Below, in pieces: positions 36,149 to 63,223 of a stretch of DNA of 64,000 bases; within the stretch, counting starts at the first letter, position 1, and every line of letters begins with the position of its first letter. The stretch is from an uncultured Paracoccus sp. GTDB lineage: Bacteria; Pseudomonadota; Alphaproteobacteria; Rhodobacterales; Rhodobacteraceae. The position numbers and the translations under genes are program-made. Where the stretch lies: NCBI RefSeq assembly GCF_947496875.1, contig NZ_CANMEH010000011.1, positions 1 through 64,000 on the forward strand. The letters run 5' to 3'. The notes below the pieces were generated by a model. It was not told the DNA's origin, searched no databases, and worked only from the letters and a program-made list of their open reading frames with translations.

Positions 36149-37441
36149 ATGAGCGATACCCCTGACCTGCCCCTGCGCGTCACCCGTACCCCGGAACCGG
36201 TGCCGCCGTCCGCCGGGGGACGACGCGCGCCGCGGCGCTGGCGCTGGCTGATGCTGCTGCCGCTGGTGCCGGTGCCGGTGCTGCTGCTGAGCGGGGCCGT
36301 GATCGGGATGTATTTCCAGCCCCCGGGACTGCGGCTGGTGTTTGACCGTACCGGGCTGATTCCTGGCGCGGGGTCCAGCGCACCGATCGCCCTGCCGCCC
36401 GAGATAGATCTGCCGCCGGCGGTCGTCGAGACCATCGTTCCAACCGACGTCATGGGCCTGGCCCGTCTGATCCCGCGCGGCGACGTGATCACGGTGGCGC
36501 CGCCCTATGGCGCGGGGGATGCCCGGATCGCGACGCTGCCGGTGGCCGAGGGGGATCGCGTCGACCAGGGCCAGATCATTGCCACGCTTGACAACCGGCC
36601 CTTCCTTGAAAGCGCGCTTCTGACTGCCCGGGCCGAGGTCGCGGTGCGAGAGGCCGCACTGGTCCAGACACGCGCGGGTGTCGCGGCGTCGCGTGACGAG
36701 GCGCAGGCGGCGCTGGACCAGGCACGCGCCGCCGCAGTCGAGGCGCAGGCGGAGTTCGACCGGACCCGGGCCCTGTCCCAGCGGGGGGTCGCGACCCAGG
36801 CCGCCCTGGACGTGGCCGAGGCGAACCGCAGTCAGGCCACCCTTGCGGTCGCCAAGGCCGAGGCCACCCTGAACCGCTTTGCCGCGGGCGACGCCGAAAC
36901 CCAGCCGGACGTTATCGTCGCCAGCCGCAACCTGGATGCAGCCCGTGCGGCGCTGACCCGGGCCGAGGCCGATCTGGCCCGGGCCGAGGTGCGTGCCCCG
37001 ATCGCGGGGACCATCCTGTCGGTGGATACGCGGCCCGGCGAACGCCCGCCCGCGGCCGGCATTCTGACGATGGGCGATACCGGTCAGATGATGGCCGAGG
37101 TCGAGGTCTATCAGGACCGGATCGCCCGCGTCGCCCCGGGGCAGCCGGTCGAGCTGCTGGCGATGGCGATCGGCCAGACGCTGCACGGCCGGGTGTCACG
37201 GATCGGCCTGACCGTGGGCCGGCAGGGGCTGCTGCCCGACGACATCGCCGCCAACACGGATGCCCGCGTCGTCGAGGTCGAGGTGGAACTCGACCCCGAA
37301 AGCAGCGCCGTCGCCGCCCGCTATACTCATCTGGAGGTCGTGGCGCGCATCCAGACGGCGGCAGCCGGTTTCGGGGCCATGGGTGAGAATGCCAGCGACC
37401 CGCAGGCCGTGTCGCCCGTGCGGATGCCGGCGGACAGATGA
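36149..37441 (+). CDS. DevB-type periplasmic adaptor of an ABC exporter (HlyD family)
   Basis: 430 aa. A cytoplasmic start, one membrane anchor (residues ~33-55, LMLLPLVPVPVLLLSGAVIGMYF), a split biotinyl-lipoyl domain (ATLPVAEGDRVDQGQIIATLD ... RAEVRAPIAGTILSVDTRPGE), a long Ala/Glu/Arg coiled-coil hairpin (about 150-275) and a beta-barrel C-terminal domain. The arrangement with the next two genes is that of cyanobacterial-type DevBCA/MacB-like exporters, which pass substrates to a TolC-like outer-membrane channel not found here. The ATG has GAGG 6 nt upstream. Confidence 0.85.
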   Translation: MSDTPDLPLRVTRTPEPVPPSAGGRRAPRRWRWLMLLPLVPVPVLLLSGAVIGMYFQPPGLRLVFDRTGLIPGAGSSAPIALPPEIDLPPAVVETIVPTDVMGLARLIPRGDVITVAPPYGAGDARIATLPVAEGDRVDQGQIIATLDNRPFLESALLTARAEVAVREAALVQTRAGVAASRDEAQAALDQARAAAVEAQAEFDRTRALSQRGVATQAALDVAEANRSQATLAVAKAEATLNRFAAGDAETQPDVIVASRNLDAARAALTRAEADLARAEVRAPIAGTILSVDTRPGERPPAAGILTMGDTGQMMAEVEVYQDRIARVAPGQPVELLAMAIGQTLHGRVSRIGLTVGRQGLLPDDIAANTDARVVEVEVELDPESSAVAARYTHLEVVARIQTAAAGFGAMGENASDPQAVSPVRMPADR

Positions 37442-46161: not shown

Positions 46162-46941
46162 TCAGACGACGCGGTCCACCATCATGTGCTTGATGGCCCC
46201 GATCGCCTTGGCGGGGTTGAGCCCCTTTGGGCAGGTGTTCGTGCAGTTCATGATCGTGTGGCAGCGGTACAGTTTGAACGGATCCTCCAGCTGGTCCAGC
46301 CGCTCGCCCGTTGCCTCGTCGCGGGAATCGATGATCCACCGATAGGCGTGCAGCAGCGCCGCCGGGCCTAGGTACTTGTCGCCATTCCACCAGTAGGACG
46401 GGCAGGACGTCGAACAGCACGCGCAAAGGATGCATTCGTACAGCCCGTCCAGCTTCTTGCGGTCCTCGATCGACTGGCGCCATTCCTTCGGCGGGGTCGG
46501 CGTCTCGGTGATCAGATAGGGATTCACGCTCGCATGCTGGGCGTAGAAATGCGTCAGGTCCGGCACGAGGTCCTTGACCACCGGCATGTGCGGCAGCGGA
46601 TAGATGTTGATGTCACCCGCGACCTCGTCGATCCCGTAGATGCAGGCGAGATGATTGCCGCCATCGATCACCATCGCGCAGGACCCGCAGATCCCCTCGC
46701 GGCAGGACCTGCGGAAGGTCAGGGTCGGATCGATCTCGTTCTTGATCTTGTTCAGCGCGTCGAGAACCATCGGACCGCATTTGTCCAGGTCGATCCAGTA
46801 GGTGTCCAGCCGCGGGTTCAGCCCGCTTTCCGGATCATAGCGATAGATGTTGAACCGCTTCAGGCGGTTCGCCCCTTCGGGCTTGGGCCAGGTCTTGCCC
46901 ACGGTGATGCGGCTGTTCTTGGGAAGCGTAAACTGGACCAT
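46162..46941 (-). CDS. sdhB: Succinate dehydrogenase iron-sulfur subunit
   Basis: 259 aa. Three cluster motifs: [11 protein letters not shown] for [2Fe-2S], and [16 protein letters not shown] and [17 protein letters not shown] for the [4Fe-4S]/[3Fe-4S] centres. It passes electrons from SdhA to ubiquinone. Two small secreted-protein genes separate it from sdhA. Confidence 0.96.
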
Positions 46942-47342: not shown

Positions 47343-47714
47343 TCAGGCGACGGCGATCCGCGAGATGCACTGGCTTGCCCCCGGGCGCTGGACGATCGCG
47401 GCCACGGCGTCGGCAGCGGCCGAACTCCCCGACAGAGTCGCCAGGTCGGCGATTTCCGCCATCGTCGCGTTGTTCATCACGCAGGCGGTGTAGGGCGCAA
47501 CGTCGCGACCGGGCAGGCGCTTGGCCATCTCGATATTCACGACCTGGGCCGCGGCCGACCGCTGGGCCGACCCGACGTCCGGGGCAGGCGCCGGCGTCGG
47601 GTCGATGATAACGGGGGCGCTGGGGCCCGGTATGGTCATGCCCGGCGGAATAGTCGCCACGCAACCGGACAGGAGCAGGGCGGCAGCAGCCGCGGCGGGG
47701 AAAATCAGACGCAT
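47343..47714 (-). CDS. Small lipoprotein immediately after sdhA
   Basis: 123 aa. [18 protein letters not shown] is a lipoprotein signal with lipobox LSGC. The mature part starts with a Pro/Ala-rich linker and then has two cysteines (YTACVMNNATM; SQCISRIAVA). Its ATG overlaps the sdhA stop (TGATG), which ties it to the operon. Function unknown. Confidence 0.8.
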   Translation of the reverse strand: MRLIFPAAAAAALLLSGCVATIPPGMTIPGPSAPVIIDPTPAPAPDVGSAQRSAAAQVVNIEMAKRLPGRDVAPYTACVMNNATMAEIADLATLSGSSAAADAVAAIVQRPGASQCISRIAVA

Positions 47715-49525
47715 CAGTAAACCCTTTTCTTGGGAGCAATCTTGCCAAGGTCGATCCCGCCGTCCTCGGCCGGTGTCAGCGGCTCCAGATGTACGGGGCG
47801 GTATGCCAGTTTGACGTCATTTCCTTCGACCCATGCAAGAGAATGCTTGCGCCAGTTTGCATCATCCCGATCGGGATAATCCTCATGCGCGTGCGCGCCC
47901 CGCGATTCCTTGCGCGCCTCGGCGGCGACGATCGTGGCCAGGGCGTTCGGCATCAGGTTGGTCAGTTCCAGCGTCTCGACCAGATCCGTGTTCCAGATCA
48001 TCGTGCGGTCGGTGACGTGCAGATCGGCCATCCGGCCCGCGATCTCGGTCATCTTGTCGACGCCCTCGGCCAGCGTCTTGTCGGTGCGGAACACCGCCGC
48101 GTCCGACTGCATCGCGCGCTGCATGTCGGTGCGCAGCTGCGCCGTCGGCGTCGATCCGTTCGCGTGGCGCAGCGCGTCGAACCGTGACAGGGCACGGTCG
48201 ACCTCGGCGGTGTTGGTGCCGGGGATGCTGCCTTGACGGTCGATCACCTGGCCGGCCCGAATGGCCGCCGCGCGGCCGAACACCACCAGGTCGATCAGGC
48301 TGTTCGATCCCAGACGGTTCGCCCCGTGCACCGACGCGCAGCCGGCCTCGCCGACGGCCATCAGACCCGGAAAGATCCGGTCCGGATCGTCGGGCGACGG
48401 CGCCAGGACCTCGCCCCAGAAATTGGTCGGGATCCCGCCCATGTTGTAATGGACCGTCGGCAGCACCGGGATCGGTTCGCGGGTCAGGTCGACCCCGGCG
48501 AAGATCCGGGCCGATTCGGAGATGCCGGGAAGGCGTTCGGCCAGCGTCTCGGGCGGCAGATGCGACAGGTGCAGGAAGATGTGGTCGTTGTCGGGCCCCA
48601 CGCCCCGCCCCTCGCGGATTTCCAGCGTCATGCAGCGGCTCACCACATCGCGGGACGCCAGATCCTTGTAGGTCGGGGCATAGCGTTCCATGAACCGCTC
48701 GCCCTCGGAATTGGTGAGATACCCGCCCTCGCCGCGCGCTCCCTCGGTGATCAGGCAGCCGGAACCGTAGATCCCCGTGGGGTGGAACTGCACGAATTCC
48801 ATGTCCTGCAAGGCTAGGCCGGCGCGGGCCACCATGCCGCCGCCGTCGCCGGTGCAGCTGTGGGCCGACGTGGCGCTGAAATAGGCGCGGCCATAACCGC
48901 CGGTCGCCAGCACCACCATCTTGGCGTTGAAGACGTGGATCGTGCCGTCGTCGAACTTCCAGCAGACGACCCCGGTGCAGGCCCCGTCGGTGATGATCAG
49001 GTCCAGCGCGAAATACTCGATGAAGAACTCGGCCTTTTCCTTCAGCGACTGGCCGTAGAGCGTGTGCAGGATCGCGTGGCCGGTCCGGTCGGCAGCGGCA
49101 CAGGTGCGCTGCACGGGCGGGCCCTCGCCGTACTCGGTCGTGTGGCCGCCGAACGGGCGCTGATAGATCTTGCCCGCCTCGGTCCGGCTGAAGGGGACGC
49201 CGTAATGTTCCAGTTCGTAGACCGCCTTGGGCGCCTCGCGGGCCAGATACTCCATCGCATCCGTGTCGCCCAGCCAGTCCGATCCCTTGACCGTGTCGTA
49301 CATGTGCCACTGCCAGCTGTCCGGCCCCATGTTGCCGAGGCTGGCGGCAATCCCGCCCTGGGCCGCGACGGTGTGCGACCGGGTCGGGAACAGCTTGGTC
49401 ACGCAGGCGGTACGCAGCCCCTGTTCGGCCATGCCCAGGGTCGCGCGCAGCCCGGCACCGCCGGCACCGACGACCACCACGTCGTAATCATGCGTTTCAT
49501 AGGGATAGGCGGCAGATGCGGACAT
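47714..49525 (-). CDS. sdhA: Succinate dehydrogenase flavoprotein subunit
   Basis: 603 aa. The FAD-binding [20 protein letters not shown], the flavinylation His in [11 protein letters not shown], the substrate site [20 protein letters not shown] and the C-terminal FAD-binding segments are intact. It oxidises succinate to fumarate. Confidence 0.97.
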
Positions 49526-49536
49526 GGGACGGCCTC

Positions 49537-49932
49537 TCAGACGATGACGGCGCTCAGCGCCATGCGCGCCAGCGCGTAGACGGCTGCGGCAATGACCGCC
49601 CAGCCGAACATTTCCGAAAAGATGATCGCGACCTTGCGCTCGGTGTGATCCAGATAGTCGTCGATCATGATCCGGGTGCCCTTCACGAAATGGTACATCC
49701 CCACGATCAGGAAAAGCGCGGTGACGATGGCCGGATAGGGCTGGCTGAAATAGACCAGAACACCCTCGCGCGGCAGCCCGATGGCGCGCCCGATGACCAG
49801 CAGAAAGGCCGGGGTCAGCACCACCAGCGCGACCGAGGTGACGGTCATGGTCCAGTGATGCTGGGTTCCGGTGGACGGTCCGGCGGCACCCAGCCCCATG
49901 GCGGCCTTGCGCGGCGTGATATAGCGCATCAT
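49537..49932 (-). CDS. sdhD: Succinate dehydrogenase membrane anchor subunit
   Basis: 131 aa with three membrane helices and the haem-binding-type segment [20 protein letters not shown]. Lies between sdhC and sdhA with gaps of 11 bp. Confidence 0.9.
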
Positions 49933-49943
49933 ACCCTCCGATC

Positions 49944-50336
49944 TCAGGCGAAGAAGAACAGGATCAGGGTCAGCACGGTCATGATGACCGATCCCCAGAT
50001 GATCGCCCAGCTGGTCTTCTGCCCCGCATCGATTTCCAGCATGTGCCCGGCGTCATAGAAGAAATGCCGGATGCCGGCCAGAAAGTGGAACCACAGCGAC
50101 CACAGCGACCCGGCCAGCACCAGGAAACCGAACCATGACCGCAGCACCCAGTCGGCAGTGGCGAAGGCCCGGTCACCGGCCACGGCCGCAACAAGCCACC
50201 AGACCAGCAGCAGGATCCCCGCGACCATCGCATGACCGGTCGCGCGGTTCATGATCGACGTCACGGCAGAGATCGGCAGCCGGTAGACCTGCAGATGCGG
50301 GGACAGCGGCCGGTTGCCGCGGGGAATGTCACCCAT
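49944..50336 (-). CDS. sdhC: Succinate dehydrogenase cytochrome b556 subunit
   Basis: 130 aa with three membrane helices. [26 protein letters not shown] is the SdhC signature, and [17 protein letters not shown] contributes the haem-ligand His. First gene of the sdh operon; the upstream gap holds GTGATCAC-type palindromes. Confidence 0.94.
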
Positions 50337-50472
50337 GGGACGCTCCTGTCATTGGCGCCCGGCCGACAGCGGGCGCGGGCGGACTGAGGTTGCGGTGTCT
50401 GTATCGGATTTATGCCGGGTGTCACGGCCGGGCGCCAGACGAAAGGCGGAAACTGCCCGAAACGGAGGAAAT

Positions 50473-50501
50473 GCGATCACAAGGAGGACGCTTGTGATCA
50501 C
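50473..50501. promoter_or_regulatory. Paired palindromes upstream of sdhC (21-bp spacing)
   Basis: GCGATCAC (50473-50480) and GTGATCAC (50494-50501) lie exactly 21 bp apart and together form the inverted repeat GATCACAAG-N7-CTTGTGATC. A pair with the same 21-bp spacing precedes sucC. The regulator is unknown. Confidence 0.65.
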
Positions 50502-50558: not shown

Positions 50559-50566
50559 GTGATCAC
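50559..50566. promoter_or_regulatory. Third GTGATCAC copy upstream of sdhC
   Basis: TTGTGATCACGC at 50557-50568 repeats the 12-mer context of the second copy (TTGTGATCACGC at 50492-50503), 65 bp away. Confidence 0.5.
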
Positions 50567-51466: not shown

Positions 51467-52510
51467 TCAGACCGGCATCAGGGCCCAGTAGTCCAGATCC
51501 AGCAGCACATGCGGCGCGTAGCGTCCGTCCTCGCCGCGCCAGGCGCTGTCGCAGGCGGGACCCTTGTGGGCGACCGTCCGCAGCCGGATGGCACCCACGC
51601 CCGGGGCAGATGTCGCGGCCTTGTCCAGCACCTCGGACCAGGCGCGCACCGTGTCGCCGGCAAAGCACGGATTCGCGTGGGCGCCACCGTTCAGCGCCAC
51701 CATCATCTGCGCGTTGGCCAAGCCGTTGAACGACAGCGCCCGCGCCAGGCTGATGACGTGGCCGCCATAGATCAACCGGCGCCCGTCGTCGCGGAAGGTT
51801 GCGTCAAAATGGACCTTGGCCGTGTTCTGCCACAGCCGGGTTGCCAGCATGTGCTCGGCCTCTTCGACGGTCACGCCATCGGCATGGTCGATGATCTCGC
51901 CCACGGCGTAATCGCCCCAGCGGTGCGGCTCTCCGGCCAGGTCGAAGTCGTAGTTCCGGAAATCCAGCCCCTCGGGGACGACCAGATCCGCGGCCGGGAC
52001 GACCTTGGCCAGTTCCGGCACGACCTCCTGCGGCGCCGGCGCGTCGCGGTCGCGCTTGCGCACCATCACCCAGCGGACATAGTCCAGCACCACGGTGCCG
52101 GCCTGGTTCAGCCCACGGGTCCGGACATAGACGTTGCCGGACGTGCCGTTCGAATTCTGCTTAACCCCGATCACCTCGGATTCGGACCGGATGGTGTCAC
52201 CAGGCCACACCGGCGCCAGCCAGCGGCCCTGCGCATAGCCCAGATTGGCCACGGCGTTCAGCGACACGTCGGGCACCGTCTTGCCGAACACCGTGTGGAA
52301 GGCGATCAGCTCGTCGAGCGGCGCGGCGCGCAGCCCGCAGGCCCGGGCGAATTCGTCGCTGGAGCTGATCGCGTGGCGGGCCGGGTACAGCGCGTGGTAC
52401 AGTGCCCGTTCGCCGCCAGACAGCGTGCGCGGCACGGCGTGGCGGATGACCTGCCCGACGCGGTAATCCTCGAAAAAGCGTCCGGGGTTGGTCTTGCCAG
52501 TCATGCTCAT
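51467..52510 (-). CDS. Mesaconyl-CoA hydratase (ethylmalonyl-CoA pathway)
   Basis: 347 aa, a double MaoC-like (R)-hydratase resembling Mch/Meh of Rhodobacter. Hot-dog segments read RFFEDYRVGQVIRHAVPRTL at the start and HFDATFRDDGRRLIYGGHVISLARAL late in the chain. It hydrates mesaconyl-CoA to beta-methylmalyl-CoA during acetyl-CoA assimilation. Its ATG overlaps the DUF1737 gene stop by 4 nt, and mcl2 lies two genes upstream on the same strand, which supports the pathway call. Confidence 0.87.
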   Translation of the reverse strand: MSMTGKTNPGRFFEDYRVGQVIRHAVPRTLSGGERALYHALYPARHAISSSDEFARACGLRAAPLDELIAFHTVFGKTVPDVSLNAVANLGYAQGRWLAPVWPGDTIRSESEVIGVKQNSNGTSGNVYVRTRGLNQAGTVVLDYVRWVMVRKRDRDAPAPQEVVPELAKVVPAADLVVPEGLDFRNYDFDLAGEPHRWGDYAVGEIIDHADGVTVEEAEHMLATRLWQNTAKVHFDATFRDDGRRLIYGGHVISLARALSFNGLANAQMMVALNGGAHANPCFAGDTVRAWSEVLDKAATSAPGVGAIRLRTVAHKGPACDSAWRGEDGRYAPHVLLDLDYWALMPV

Positions 52511-53336: not shown

Positions 53337-54188
53337 TCACGTCCCCTGCGCCATGGCCGCGATGGCGTCGGCGCGCGCCAGCGTGGTGCGGGCGGTTTCC
53401 ACATGCAGGTTCTCGACGATGCGACCATCGACGACCGCCACCCCCTTGCCCTGCGCCATCACCTCGTCGAACGCCTCGATCTGGCGCCGCGCCAGCGCGA
53501 CCTCGTCCGTGGACGGGGCGAAGCTGCTGTTCGCGACCTCGAGCTGCGCGGGGTGGATCAGCGTCTTGCCATCGAAACCCATGTCGCGGCCCTGTTCGCA
53601 TTCGGCGCGCAGACCCTGATCATCCTTGAAGGCGTTGTAGACGCCGTCCACGATGATCCGGCCGTGCGCCTTGGCGGCCAGCAGGCACAGGCCCAGGCCG
53701 GTCTGCATCGGCAGCCGGTCGGGGCGGTGGCGGCTGCCCAGTTCGCGGGCCAGGTCGTTCGTGCCCATCACCATGCCCTGCAGCCGCGGATGTCCCGCGA
53801 TCGCGGCGGCGTTCAGCATGCCCGCCGCGGTTTCAAGCATCGCCCACAGCGGCGTGTCCGGCACGATCGCGGCGACGGCATCCAGATCGGCGGGTGCGTT
53901 CACCTTGGGGATCAGCACGGCATCGGCCCCCGTCGCAAAGGCCGCCGCGTCGTCGCGCCCCCATTCGGTGTCCAGCCCGTTGATCCGCACGATGCGCGTG
54001 CGCTGCCCGTAATCCGCCTGCAACGCCTCGCGCAGCGCCGCGCGCGCGGTCGCCTTTTCACCCGGCGCGACCGCATCCTCGAGGTCGAAGATGATGGCAT
54101 CCGCCGGCAGGTTGCGGGCCTTCTCCATCGCGCGGACATTGGCGGCCGGCAGGTACAGGACGGAACGGAACGGGCGGGACAGGCTCAT
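53337..54188 (-). CDS. (3S)-malyl-CoA thioesterase, Mcl2 type (CitE-like)
   Basis: 283 aa from ATG 54188, with GAAGGA upstream. CitE-like TIM barrel: RSVLYLPAANVRAMEKA, IIFDLEDAVAPGEK, metal ligands in MLETAAGMLNA and GTNDLARELGSRHRPDR, and DGKTLIHPAQLEV. It resembles Rhodobacter Mcl2 along its length rather than Mcl1 lyases. Mcl2 releases malate from malyl-CoA at the end of the ethylmalonyl-CoA pathway. Confidence 0.87.
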   Translation of the reverse strand: MSLSRPFRSVLYLPAANVRAMEKARNLPADAIIFDLEDAVAPGEKATARAALREALQADYGQRTRIVRINGLDTEWGRDDAAAFATGADAVLIPKVNAPADLDAVAAIVPDTPLWAMLETAAGMLNAAAIAGHPRLQGMVMGTNDLARELGSRHRPDRLPMQTGLGLCLLAAKAHGRIIVDGVYNAFKDDQGLRAECEQGRDMGFDGKTLIHPAQLEVANSSFAPSTDEVALARRQIEAFDEVMAQGKGVAVVDGRIVENLHVETARTTLARADAIAAMAQGT

Positions 54189-54370
54189 CAAGCATCCTTC
54201 GCGGCAGAAAACGTCCCGCATCACTCGCCGAAATCCGGCCGGTGGGCAACCCTGCGGCCCGGCAGTCACGCAACAAATGTTTAGGGATGCAACGACGCCG
54301 GTCGACTCTTGTTTGGTAGCGATCCCGCATCTGCGGGGCCGATCCTGCAACACAGCGAAAGGACAGCATC

Positions 54371-56062: not shown

Positions 56063-56089
56063 CGGGCGTCTCGCGAGGGGCGCCCGTTT
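56063..56089 (+). terminator. Terminator after mdh
   Basis: CGGGCG...CGCCCG with an inner CTC/GAG pairing forms a stem-loop followed by TTTCC, 22 bp past the mdh stop codon. Confidence 0.65.
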
Positions 56090-56139: not shown

Positions 56140-56168
56140 GTGATCACGGCGACGCGACGTGTGATCAC
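56140..56168. promoter_or_regulatory. Paired palindromes upstream of sucC (21-bp spacing)
   Basis: GTGATCAC at 56140-56147 and 56161-56168, exactly 21 bp apart, in the contexts ATGTGATCACGG and TGTGATCACAAA. They lie 106-134 bp before the sucC ATG, between the mdh terminator and sucC. The same paired layout precedes sdhC. Confidence 0.65.
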
Positions 56169-56273
56169 AAACAACGGTTATTGATCCTGCGGATCCCGCC
56201 GCTCCCCAGACCCGGTTTGCTTTGCCGCGATTTTGTGCGATGCGGTGCCAGGTTTTTCCAGCGAGGGTCCGCG

Positions 56274-57467
<1,194 letters not shown>

Positions 57468-57527: not shown

Positions 57528-58412
57528 ATGGCCATTCTCGTCGACAAGACCACCAAGGTGATCTGCCAGGGCATCACCGGCAGCCAAGGCACCTTCCACA
57601 CCGAACAGGCGATCGCCTATGGCACGCAGATGGTCGGCGGGGTCACCCCGGGCAAGGGGGGCACCACGCACCTGGACCTGCCAGTGTTCGACTCGGTCCA
57701 CGAAGCGGTCGAGCGGACCGGCGCCGATGCCTCGGTGATCTATGTCCCGCCGCCGTTTGCGGCCGATTCCATCCTCGAGGCCATCGACGCGCAGATCCCG
57801 CTGATCGTCTGCATCACCGAAGGCATTCCGGTGCTGGACATGATGCGGGTGAAACGGGCGCTGCAGGGCTCGAATTCGCGCCTGATCGGGCCGAACTGCC
57901 CCGGCATCATGACGCCGGACGAATGCAAGATCGGGATCATGCCGGGATCAATCTTCAAGCGCGGCTCGGTGGGTGTGGTGTCGCGGTCCGGCACCCTGAC
58001 CTACGAGGCGGTCAAGCAGACCTCGGATGTCGGGCTGGGCCAGTCGTCGGCCGTCGGCATCGGCGGCGACCCGATCAAGGGCATGGAACATATCGACGTG
58101 CTGGAGATGTTCCTGGCCGACCCGGAAACCCAGTCGATCGTCATGATCGGCGAGATCGGCGGCTCTGCCGAAGAGGACGCGGCGCAGTTCCTGGCCGACG
58201 AGAAGAAGGCCGGCCGCTGGAAGCCGACAGCCGGGTTCATCGCCGGCCGCACCGCACCGCCCGGTCGCCGCATGGGCCATGCGGGCGCGATCGTGTCGGG
58301 GGGCAAGGGCGACGCCGAGTCCAAGATCGCCGCCATGAAGGAAGCCGGAATCGTGGTCGCCGACAGCCCCGCGAAGCTGGGCGAGGCGGTGCTGCAGGCG
58401 ATCGGCCGGTAA
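57528..58412 (+). CDS. sucD: Succinyl-CoA synthetase alpha subunit
   Basis: 294 aa. CoA-binding [39 protein letters not shown] and the phospho-His in [16 protein letters not shown]. Substrate-level phosphorylation step of the TCA cycle. Confidence 0.97.
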
Positions 58413-58526
58413 GACACTTGGAACACACGCGGCGCCGGCCTAGGCTGGGGCTGCGTCGTCGCGCAGACGGTGCGCCGCGATCGGGCGGGGCGCCGGTTTT
58501 ACAGACAACCGGGTCAGGTGAACGCC

Positions 58527-61499
58527 ATGAACGACCAATCCGCCAATGACGCCTTCCGCGACAGTTCGTTCCTGCAGGGGGCCAATGCCACCTATGTCGA
58601 ACAGCTGTACGGGCAGTGGGCCAACGACCCGTCCGCGGTGGATGCGGCCTGGGACGCGTTCTTCCGCGAGCTTGGTGACGACCAGTCCTCGGTGACCCGT
58701 GGCGCCCAGGGGGCCAGCTGGGCCCGCGGCGACTGGCCGCCGATGCCGTCCGACGAGACGACCGCGGCGCTGACCGGCGAATGGCCGATGGCGTCGCGGG
58801 CCGAGGCCAAGGAGGCGCTGCGCAAGATCGCCGACAAGGCCGAAGAAAGGGGCGTGACCGCGACCGAGGACCAGCTGCACCGCGCGGTGCTGGACAGTGT
58901 CCGGGCGCTGATGCTGATCCGCGCCTATCGCATCCGCGGCCACCTGCACGCCGATCTCGATCCGCTGGGGATGCGCGAGATGCCGCCCCTGGGCGAACTG
59001 GATCCGGAGACCTACGGCTTTACCGCGTCCGACATGGACCGGCCGATCTTCATCGACAACGTGCTGGGCCTGCAGGTCGCGTCGATGCGCCAGATCGTCG
59101 AGCTGATGAAGCGCACCTATTGCGGCACCTTCGCGCTGCAGTTCATGCATATCAGCGACCCCGAACAGGCCGCCTGGCTGAAGGAGCGGATCGAAGGCTA
59201 CGGCAAGGAGATCGCCTTTACCCAGGAGGGCCGCAAGGCCATCCTGAAGAAGCTGGTCGAGGCCGAGGGCTTCGAGAAGTTCCTGCACGTCAAGTACATG
59301 GGGACGAAGCGGTTCGGCTTGGACGGCGGCGAGGCGCTGATCCCCGCCATGGAACAGATCATCAAGCGCGGCGGCGCGCTGGGGGCGCGCGAGATCGTCA
59401 TCGGCATGCCGCATCGCGGCCGGCTGTCGGTCCTGGCGAACGTGCTGGAAAAGCCTTACCGCGCCATCTTCCACGAATTCCAAGGCGGCAGCTACAAGCC
59501 CGAGGACGTCGACGGATCCGGTGACGTCAAGTATCATCTGGGCGCCTCGTCGGACCGCAGCTTCGACGACAACACCGTCCATCTGTCGCTGACCGCCAAC
59601 CCCAGCCATCTGGAGGCGGTCAACCCGGTGGTACTGGGCAAGGTCCGCGCCAAGCAGGACCAGCATTCCGATACCGCGGACCGCACCACGGTGATCCCGA
59701 TCCTGCTGCACGGCGATGCGGCCTTTGCCGGTCAGGGCGTCGTGGCCGAATGTCTGCAGCTGTCGGGGATCCGCGGCCACCGCACCGGCGGGACGATCCA
59801 CATCATCGTCAACAACCAGATCGGCTTTACCACCGCGCCGCATTTCAGCCGCACTTCGCCCTATCCCACCGACATCGCGCTGATGGTCGAGGCACCGATC
59901 TTCCACGTGAACGGCGACGATCCCGAGGCGGTCGTCCACGCCGCCAAGGTCGCCACCGAGTTCCGGCAGAAATTCCACAAGGACGTCGTGATCGACGTGT
60001 TCTGCTATCGCCGCTTCGGTCACAACGAAGGCGACGAGCCGATGTTCACGAACCCGGCGATGTACAAGCAGATCCGCGGGCACAAGACCACCCTGCAGCT
60101 CTACACCGACCGGCTGGTCCGCGACGGCCTGATCCCCGAAGGCGAGATCGAGGACATGAAGGCCGCGTTCCAGGCGCATCTGAACGAAGAATTCGAGATC
60201 GGAAAGAATTTCCGGCCTAACAAGGCCGACTGGTTGGACGGCAAGTGGTCTGGCCTGTCCGCCCAGGGTGGCGAGTACACCGCCGGTCAGACCGGCATCC
60301 CGCCCGAGACCATGGCCCAGATCGGTGCCGCCCTGACCCGCGCGCCGGACAACCACAGCATCCACAAGACGGTGCTTCGCCTGCTGGATGCCAAGGCCAA
60401 GATGTTCGAGACCGGCCAGGGCTTCGACTGGGCCACCGGCGAGGCGCTGGCCTTCGGCTCGCTGCTGGCCGAGGGGCACCGGGTCAGGCTGTCGGGGCAG
60501 GATTCTGCTCGTGGCACGTTCAGCCAGCGCCATTCCGCCATCATCGACCAGGTGAGCGAGGACCGGCACTATCCGCTGAACCATATCCGCGAAGGTCAGG
60601 CCCGCTACGAGGTCATCGACTCGATGCTGTCGGAATATGCAGTGCTGGGGTTCGAGTACGGCTATTCGCTCGCGGAACCCAACGCTCTTACCCTGTGGGA
60701 GGCGCAGTTCGGCGATTTCGCCAACGGCGCCCAGATCATGTTCGACCAGTTCATCTCGTCCGGCGAGAAAAAATGGCTGCGGATGTCGGGACTTGTGGTG
60801 CTGATGCCGCACGGCTTCGAGGGCCAGGGCCCCGAGCATTCATCCGCCCGGCTGGAACGCTGGCTGCAGATGTCGGCCGAGGACAACTGGATCGTTGCCA
60901 ATCTCACCACGCCGGCCAACTACTTCCACATTCTTCGCCGGCAACTGCATCGCAAGTTCCGCAAGCCGCTGATGCTGATGACGCCGAAATCGCTGCTGCG
61001 GCATCCGATGGCGGTCAGCTCGGCCGACGAATTCCAGACCGGCAGCACGTTCCACCGGGTCCTGTGCGACGACGCGGATCGCGGCAAGGTAGATTTCCGG
61101 CTGGCCCCCGACGACAAGGTCAGGCGCGTCGTGATCTGCTCCGGCAAGGTCTATTACGACCTGATGGCGGCCCGCGACGAGGCGGGGCTGGAAGACGTCT
61201 ACCTGCTGCGGCTGGAACAGTTCTATCCGTTCCCGAACCACTCGCTGTCCAAGGAACTCGAACGCTTCCGCGACGCCGACGTGGTCTGGTGCCAGGAGGA
61301 GCCCAAGAACCAGGGCGGCTGGACATTCGTCGAGCCGAACATCGAATGGGTTCTGGACCGGATCGGGGCGCGCTGCAAACGTGCGATCTATGCAGGGCGC
61401 CACGCCGCCGCGTCGGTCGCGACCGGTCTCGCATCGCGACACAAGGCTGAACAAGAGGCGCTGGTGAACGCCGCGCTGGGACTGGAGAAGCAAGCATGA
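58527..61499 (+). CDS. sucA: 2-oxoglutarate dehydrogenase E1 component
   Basis: 990 aa from ATG 58527 ([21 protein letters not shown]); the N-terminal [18 protein letters not shown] peptide binds E2. ThDP-dependent domains include [29 protein letters not shown] and the SQRHSAI and GFEYGYSL segments. Oxidative decarboxylation of 2-oxoglutarate. The stop overlaps sucB by 4 nt. Confidence 0.96.
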
Positions 61500-63223
61500 C
61501 CACCGAAGTCCGCGTGCCCGCCCTGGGCGAAAGCGTCACCGAAGCCACCGTCGCCACCTGGTTCAAGAAGCCGGGGGACAGCGTCGCCGTCGACGAGATG
61601 CTGTGCGAACTGGAAACCGACAAGGTGACGGTCGAGGTTCCGTCGCCGGTCGCCGGCGTTCTGCAGGAAATCGTGGCCGCCGAAGGCGAGACCGTAAGCC
61701 CGAACGGCCTGCTGGCACAGATCGGCGAAGCAGGCGCGGGATCGTCGGATGCGGGATCCGCGGCTGCCGACGCGGGCGCCGGGTCGCGCGCTGCTGCACC
61801 GGCAGCCTCGCGCAGTGCCGACGCCGACCAGTCCGGCGGTACGCCGGACAGCCCCGCCCAGGGCGACGCAGACGCGACGCCGGGCGGGCGGTCGGTGGAC
61901 GTGATGGTGCCCGCCCTCGGCGAAAGCGTCACCGAAGCGACGGTCGCGACCTGGTTCAAGCAGGTCGGTGACACTGTCCAGCAGGACGAGATGCTGTGCG
62001 AACTGGAAACCGACAAGGTGTCGGTGGAGGTGCCGGCGCCGGCCAGCGGAACCCTGTCCGAGATCCTCGCGCCCGAGGGCAGCACCGTCGATGCGAAGGC
62101 CCGGCTGGCGGTGATCAGCGAAGGCAGCGGCGCCGCCGCGGGACCAGGCGCCTCGGGCGGCGGCGCATCCTATGGGCAGGGCGCCCAGGGCGGCGACCCC
62201 GACGCGCCGGTCGGACCCGCCTCGGGGGGCGAGGACGGCGTAACCGCGGGGGATGTCGGCTCGCCCGGCGCCGGACCGGAACAGATGCAGCCGCGCGAGG
62301 ATGTCGAGGATGCCCCGTCGGCGAAAAAGGCCATGGCGGAACGTGGACTGTCACGCGACGACGTGCAGGGCTCGGGGCGCGACGGCAGGGTGATGAAGGA
62401 AGACGTTGCTCGTGCCGGATCCGGTGCCGGCAAGGCGGCGTCAACGGCTGCCGCGTCGGCCAGGTCGCAATCCGCCCCTGCCCCGGCCCAGACGCCGCGT
62501 TCGCCCGTGCGCCCCGCCGATGCCCGGCGCGAAGAGCGGGTGCGGATGACGCGGTTGCGCCAGACCATCGCCCGGCGGCTGAAGGATGCGCAGAACACCG
62601 CCGCGATGCTGACCACCTATAACGAGGTGGACATGTCGGCGATCATGGACCTGCGCAACAGCTACAAGGACGCATTCGAGAAGAAGCACAAGATCAAGCT
62701 GGGCTTCATGTCCTTCTTCGTGAAGGCGTGCTGCCACGCGCTGAAGGAAGTGCCCGAGGTCAATGCCGAGATCGACGGCCAGGACGTGGTCTACAAGAAC
62801 TTCGTCCACATGGGCGTGGCGGTCGGCACCCCGCAGGGTCTGGTCGTGCCGATCGTGCGCGACGCGGATCAGAAGTCATTCGCGGACATCGAGCAGGAGA
62901 TCTCGGATCTCGGCGCGCGCGCCCGCGACGGCAAGCTGGCGATGGCCGACATGCAGGGCGGCACCTTCACCATCTCGAACGGGGGGGTCTATGGCTCGCT
63001 GATGTCCTCGCCGATCCTGAACCCGCCGCAATCCGGTATCCTGGGCATGCACAAGATCCAGGAACGGCCGATGGTGGTGAAGGGCGAGATCGTGATCCGG
63101 CCGATGATGTATCTGGCGCTGAGCTACGACCACCGGATCGTCGACGGCAAGGGCGCGGTGACCTTCCTCGTCCGGGTCAAGGACGCGCTGGAGGATCCGC
63201 GCCGGCTTCTCATGGACCTCTGA
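61496..63223 (+). CDS. sucB: 2-oxoglutarate dehydrogenase E2 (dihydrolipoyl succinyltransferase), two lipoyl domains
   Basis: 575 aa. Two lipoyl domains with modified lysines Lys43 and Lys174 (each in LCELETDKV), joined by Ala/Ser/Asp-rich linkers, then the E3-binding domain (residues ~272-305, [25 protein letters not shown]) and the catalytic domain with His546 and Asp550 in [14 protein letters not shown]2o enzymes of most bacteria have one lipoyl domain, about 400 aa. The two domain coding stretches are nearly identical in DNA. Confidence 0.95.

Follow-up and report, generated by a model that had tools for sequence, protein, structure and literature searches.

The question raised by this locus is whether one regulator reads the same pair of short palindromes that stands before two operons of the TCA cycle, and how such a pair would act. 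The window, the whole stretch of 64,000 nucleotides analysed here, contained five exact copies of the palindrome GTGATCAC, compared with 1.48 ± 1.07 expected. The earlier note on this DNA had described two perfect copies before sucC, 21 bp apart and after the mdh terminator, which was confirmed. The exact copies at 56140 and 56161 were located between the stop codon of mdh (56041) and the start codon of sucC (56274), downstream of a hairpin at 56063–56086. The same 21-bp pair had been claimed before sdh, where the spacing held but only one of the two copies was perfect, the other (GCGATCAC at 50473) having one mismatch. The lone copy at 36485, from which the earlier note had argued that a single 8-mer is not specific, was also present, and a single 8-mer does occur by chance. 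The sites were arranged as follows.

50473..50480, no strand assigned: proximal member of the sdh pair, reading GCGATCAC on the plus strand with one mismatch, 21 bp away from its partner
50494..50501, no strand assigned: distal copy (relative to sdhC) of the sdh pair, exact GTGATCAC
50559..50566, no strand assigned: third site upstream of sdhC, an exact GTGATCAC lying 65 bp past the sdh pair
56063..56086, plus strand: terminator-like hairpin 3' of mdh, preceding the suc pair
56140..56147, no strand assigned: distal GTGATCAC of the suc pair in the context TGTGATCACG, kept in 128/128 regulator-bearing genera
56161..56168, no strand assigned: proximal GTGATCAC of the suc pair in the context TGTGATCACAAA, with a conserved gene-side AAA flank

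The two groups of genes downstream of the pairs were composed of the following members.

46162..46941, minus strand: sdhB, iron-sulfur subunit (NF004616)
47714..49525, minus strand: sdhA, flavoprotein subunit (TIGR01816)
49537..49932, minus strand: sdhD, membrane anchor (TIGR02968, just below its cut-off)
49944..50336, minus strand: sdhC, succinate dehydrogenase cytochrome b556, first of the sdhCDAB group (TIGR02970)
56274..57467, plus strand: sucC, succinyl-CoA ligase beta subunit, first gene of the regulated operon (NCBIfam NF001913)
57528..58412, plus strand: sucD, succinyl-CoA ligase alpha subunit (NCBIfam NF004230)
58512..61499, plus strand: sucA, 2-oxoglutarate dehydrogenase E1 (NCBIfam NF006914)
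61496..63223, plus strand: sucB, 2-oxoglutarate dehydrogenase E2 (NCBIfam NF004309)

Between sdh and suc were located a mesaconyl-CoA hydratase-like gene (51470–52510, minus strand), an HpcH/HpaI lyase gene of the malyl-CoA lyase type (53340–54353, minus strand), nnrU, and mdh. Genes of the ethylmalonyl-CoA-pathway type are thus embedded in the TCA cluster, and genome G046 has the same order.

Rarity and conservation of the pair

A 21-bp pair with at most one mismatch was found only in the suc and sdh promoters of the 3.95-Mb genome, and all other matches had two mismatches; the two pairs are therefore more than chance. Single TGTGATCAC copies elsewhere in the genome were mostly located within long open reading frames.

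For comparison, approximately 11 kb upstream of sucC was taken from 140 further Rhodobacteraceae genomes, each representing a different genus, and sdhC was then located. When the genomes were divided by the presence of a close relative of the GntR/FCD gene described below, the pair was present before sucC in 128 of 128 with the regulator, the window included, and in 1 of 13 without it. The spacing in these 128 genomes was 21 bp in 114 and 20 bp in 14. Before sdhC, a pair at 20 or 21 bp was present in 100 of 106 regulator-bearing genomes and in none of the three without the regulator. Both sites and their spacing, always 20–21 bp, were thus conserved across the regulator-bearing Rhodobacteraceae, which was the check that the earlier note had proposed. 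The consensus of the pair was ttTGTGATCACA-N-TGTGATCACAAA, and the conservation extended into the outer flanks. Within 1.39 Mb of loci, exact copies no more than 120 bp apart were spaced by 21 bp 194 times and by 20 bp 25 times, compared with about 17 times at all other spacings. Exact copies reached a density of 5.4 per kb in the two promoter regions, against 0.057 per kb in the rest of these loci, an excess of approximately 96-fold. In addition, a further exact copy lay within 400 bp in 23 of the 106 sdh regions of the family, so an auxiliary site upstream of sdhC may be common.

At the order level, the perfect pair was found in all 61 complete genomes, nearly always exactly twice in each, and the reversed control pattern gave no match in the same 61 genomes. 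When 289 genomes sampled across the class were scanned, an extended version of the pattern was present in only five of them, all in the window's own family, and the pair was not seen in the other alphaproteobacterial families sampled. Among the records listed, almost all named genomes with the pair were labelled Rhodobacteraceae or Rhodobacterales, and a Paracoccus record (L303) also had the pair. The fixed paired layout is common to nearly the whole family Rhodobacteraceae, at about two pairs per genome.

A co-occurring GntR/FCD regulator

The genome contained 15 FCD-domain genes, one of which accompanied the pair across genomes.

G000:C20:2279-2932, minus strand: putative akgR (L024, GntR/FCD), outside the window on a different contig of this assembly

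The encoded protein was composed of an N-terminal GntR winged helix (PF00392, 46 bits) and a C-terminal FCD domain (PF07729, 67 bits), both above the cut-off. The sequence TGTGATCACA was located directly before its start codon, and an exact site lay no more than 40 bp from the start in about half of the 30 orthologues examined. An orthologue of at least 61% identity was present in approximately nine tenths of 151 genera and, among the places listed, lay on the sucC contig within about 17 kb in approximately 49 genera. In genome G046, akgR adjoins sdhB in the order suc-mdh-mcl-mch-sdh-akgR, which fits the locus-tag order RSP_0967-6, 0974-6, 0981 of Rhodobacter sphaeroides (PMC4344238). There, RSP_0981, of the GntR family, was predicted to control sucCD, sdh, and 2-oxoglutarate dehydrogenase (kgd) (PMC4344238), and GTGATCAC is among the reported sites of AkgR, described as a transcriptional activator (PMC6365646). 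The proposed equivalence of L024 and RSP_0981 is drawn from the protein family, the set of targets, the linkage, and the order of the genes. The shared regulator of sdh and suc that the earlier note had proposed is thereby supported, with a co-occurring GntR/FCD gene whose R. sphaeroides counterpart is probably AkgR (RSP_0981). The note had also taken the GT-N4-AC core as a hint of the GntR/FadR type; the family was right, though the argument was loose.

When the co-occurrence was placed on a tree, it amounted to only three well-supported independent contrasts, two agreeing and one without difference, as the tree was poorly resolved and too weakly supported to yield significance. In two genomes with fragmented assemblies (G018 and G106), the pair was present with a regulator only 38–39% identical. 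In genome G101, akgR (L359, G101:C56:33051-33643) appeared to be broken by a frameshift, and the sucC upstream region kept only a decayed site, as would be expected if the site is maintained for the regulator.

In the alignment of the AkgR orthologues (L026-L055), the FCD domain read N-x-x-F-H, H, and AVR(A/T/S)DV. Many FCD proteins have D, H, H, and H as metal ligands. The orthologues thus seem to share a conserved histidine-to-aspartate change, and their ligand or metal binding may differ from that of other FCD proteins.

Elsewhere in the genome, GTGATCACA/TGTGATCACA copies preceded two TRAP solute-binding (DctP) genes (L208 268 and L209 1502; G000:C6:268 and 7934), and two further FCD-GntR genes lie on their contig. 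This arrangement suggests that other FCD regulators use the same palindrome.

Promoter geometry and mode of action

A scan for consensus sigma-70 promoters between the suc pair and sucC found none, and promoter positions were therefore deduced from cross-species conservation. In the aligned orthologous promoters, a conserved −35/−10-like block was located downstream of each pair.

50396..50427, minus strand: putative sdh promoter, CCGTGACAC-N12-GATACAGACA-like block
56213..56244, plus strand: putative suc promoter, CGGTTTGCT-N12-TGTGCGATGCG, no match to the sigma-70 consensus

The suc consensus was cgTTT ... gtGccta.a, 45–46 nt past the proximal site, and the sdh consensus was CGTGACa ... TAt.a. 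Between the proximal site and the −35 block lay 44–47 nt for suc in most genomes, otherwise mainly 35–36, and 56–60 nt for sdh in most, otherwise 35, 46–49, 67–70, or 79. In the window, the sdh distance was 46 nt, closer by one turn than the 57–58 nt most frequent in the family. The minor classes lay approximately one or two turns of the helix away from the main ones, which suggests that the operator must keep a constant face toward RNA polymerase; the shifts that could count as independent are few, and the phasing of operator and promoter is suggestive rather than proven. Besides the pair and the promoter, a block AA.cg.agcaa.acGGGACag was conserved immediately before the sucC start in 125 genomes, possibly beyond the needs of a ribosome-binding site.

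Judged from sequence, the suc and sdh pairs are very probably a composite operator for AkgR, as a GntR/FCD activator of TCA-cycle genes. Each GTGATCAC palindrome would bind one AkgR dimer. The helix-turn steps, together with the pair spacing, suggest two dimers on one face of the DNA, activating from upstream; the dimers, 20–21 bp or two helix turns apart, would probably be in contact. From approximately 85–120 bp upstream of the deduced start sites, AkgR would activate both the sucCDAB operon and, on the other side, the sdhCDAB group, probably touching RNA polymerase in a class I-like manner. The deduced positions would put the centres of the sites at about −87 and −108 for suc and at about −96 and −117 for sdh. 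Three enzymes, succinyl-CoA synthetase, 2-oxoglutarate dehydrogenase, and succinate dehydrogenase, would thus be raised together.

Most GntR/FadR-type proteins are repressors, and the pair might instead be a repressor operator at which AkgR, for example, loops or blocks the DNA. The third sdh site 65 bp away and the extra copies found in sdh regions of the family could permit looping. However, the sites mostly stood 44–60 nt upstream of the −35 block without overlapping the promoter, the distance changes by helix turns suit activation, and activation is the role described for AkgR (PMC6365646). Repression is therefore an unlikely reading, although it survives best among the alternatives.

Slightly less probable still is that one of the 14 other GntR/FCD paralogues in the genome reads the pair, as several FCD regulators may share GTGATCAC. 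The paralogue L023 has a TGTGATCACG copy upstream of its own gene, TGTGATCACA-type copies stand before the genes for TRAP solute-binding proteins close to two other FCD genes, and the same motif has been proposed for PS417_07240 of Pseudomonas (PMC6365646). L023 itself was rejected as the shared regulator, since only 3 of 41 genomes gave a match at E ≤ 1e-40 and most genera lack it. The L024 orthologue, in contrast, follows the pair across genomes and in many genera lies linked to the TCA cluster, and RSP_0981 is the regulator named in the literature (PMC4344238).

An assignment of the pair to CceR, the LacI-type central-carbon regulator that also activates TCA genes in R. sphaeroides, is improbable, although the CceR regulon listed for that species includes succinate dehydrogenase, 2-oxoglutarate dehydrogenase, and fumarase (PMC11323563). 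The palindrome GTGATCAC has been attributed to AkgR (PMC6365646), and the CceR regulon of Paracoccus denitrificans is without these TCA genes (PMC11323563), yet the pair occurs in the Paracoccus record. Succinate dehydrogenase and 2-oxoglutarate dehydrogenase of P. denitrificans, being outside the CceR regulon, must be controlled otherwise (PMC11323563), and the conserved AkgR pair is a ready candidate for that control. A chance or compositional repeat without function, to which the single 8-mer at 36485 might point, is already refuted by the conservation of the pair, its fixed spacing, and the density excess.

A stronger form of the AkgR reading is also conceivable, at a probability a little under even. 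AkgR could be an obligate dimer-of-dimers on a rigid two-turn operator that each genome uses at two promoters only. It would then be a switch dedicated to two operons, tying 2-oxoglutarate dehydrogenase and succinyl-CoA synthetase to succinate dehydrogenase in the Rhodobacteraceae, with activation dependent on helical phase with the promoter.

Comparison with known systems

The AkgR (RSP_0981) regulon of Rhodobacter sphaeroides was reportedly described by Imam et al. in 2015 (mBio e02461-14). The regulator, motif, and targets have already been published, and the finding of a shared regulator is therefore known biology. The pan-family conservation, the exclusivity of the paired operator at two per genome, and the helix-turn phasing are refinements added here. 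Searches for TGTGATCACA returned no relevant paper, the matches being apparently of the primer type, and a search for GTGATCAC in promoters returned nothing. The pan-family conservation, pair geometry, two-per-genome use, and helical phasing were not found in the papers examined, and the primary AkgR paper (Imam et al. 2015) may contain part of them. The analysis puts a name to the regulator that probably stands behind the pattern, and control of the lower half of the oxidative TCA cycle by AkgR would be a near-universal trait of the Rhodobacteraceae. The AkgR operator appears unusually rigid, and the invariant 20–21 bp spacing, together with the helix-turn steps to the promoter, provides a directly testable model of GntR/FCD activation.

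By sequence, the best solved relative of the regulator was McbR (YncC) of E. coli (PDB code 4p9f, E 2e-19). It is likewise of the GntR-FCD type, whereas the organism and targets are different and the similarity is only distant. PS417_07240, the GntR regulator of the deoxyribonate cluster of Pseudomonas simiae, is 32% identical to AkgR, and a GTGATCAC palindrome was proposed as its operator (PMC6365646). However, it serves a catabolic cluster, for which just one palindrome is reported, between −47 and −40 relative to the start codon (PMC6365646).

The AkgR regulon of R. sphaeroides matched the present locus in the GTGATCAC palindrome, in a regulator of the GntR family, and in sucCD, 2-oxoglutarate dehydrogenase, and sdh as targets, which are the genes downstream of the pairs here; akgR also lies near the same gene cluster in many genera. 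The present locus differed in the strict 20–21 bp pair at both promoters, with one degenerate sdh copy, and in the location of akgR on a separate contig of this assembly.
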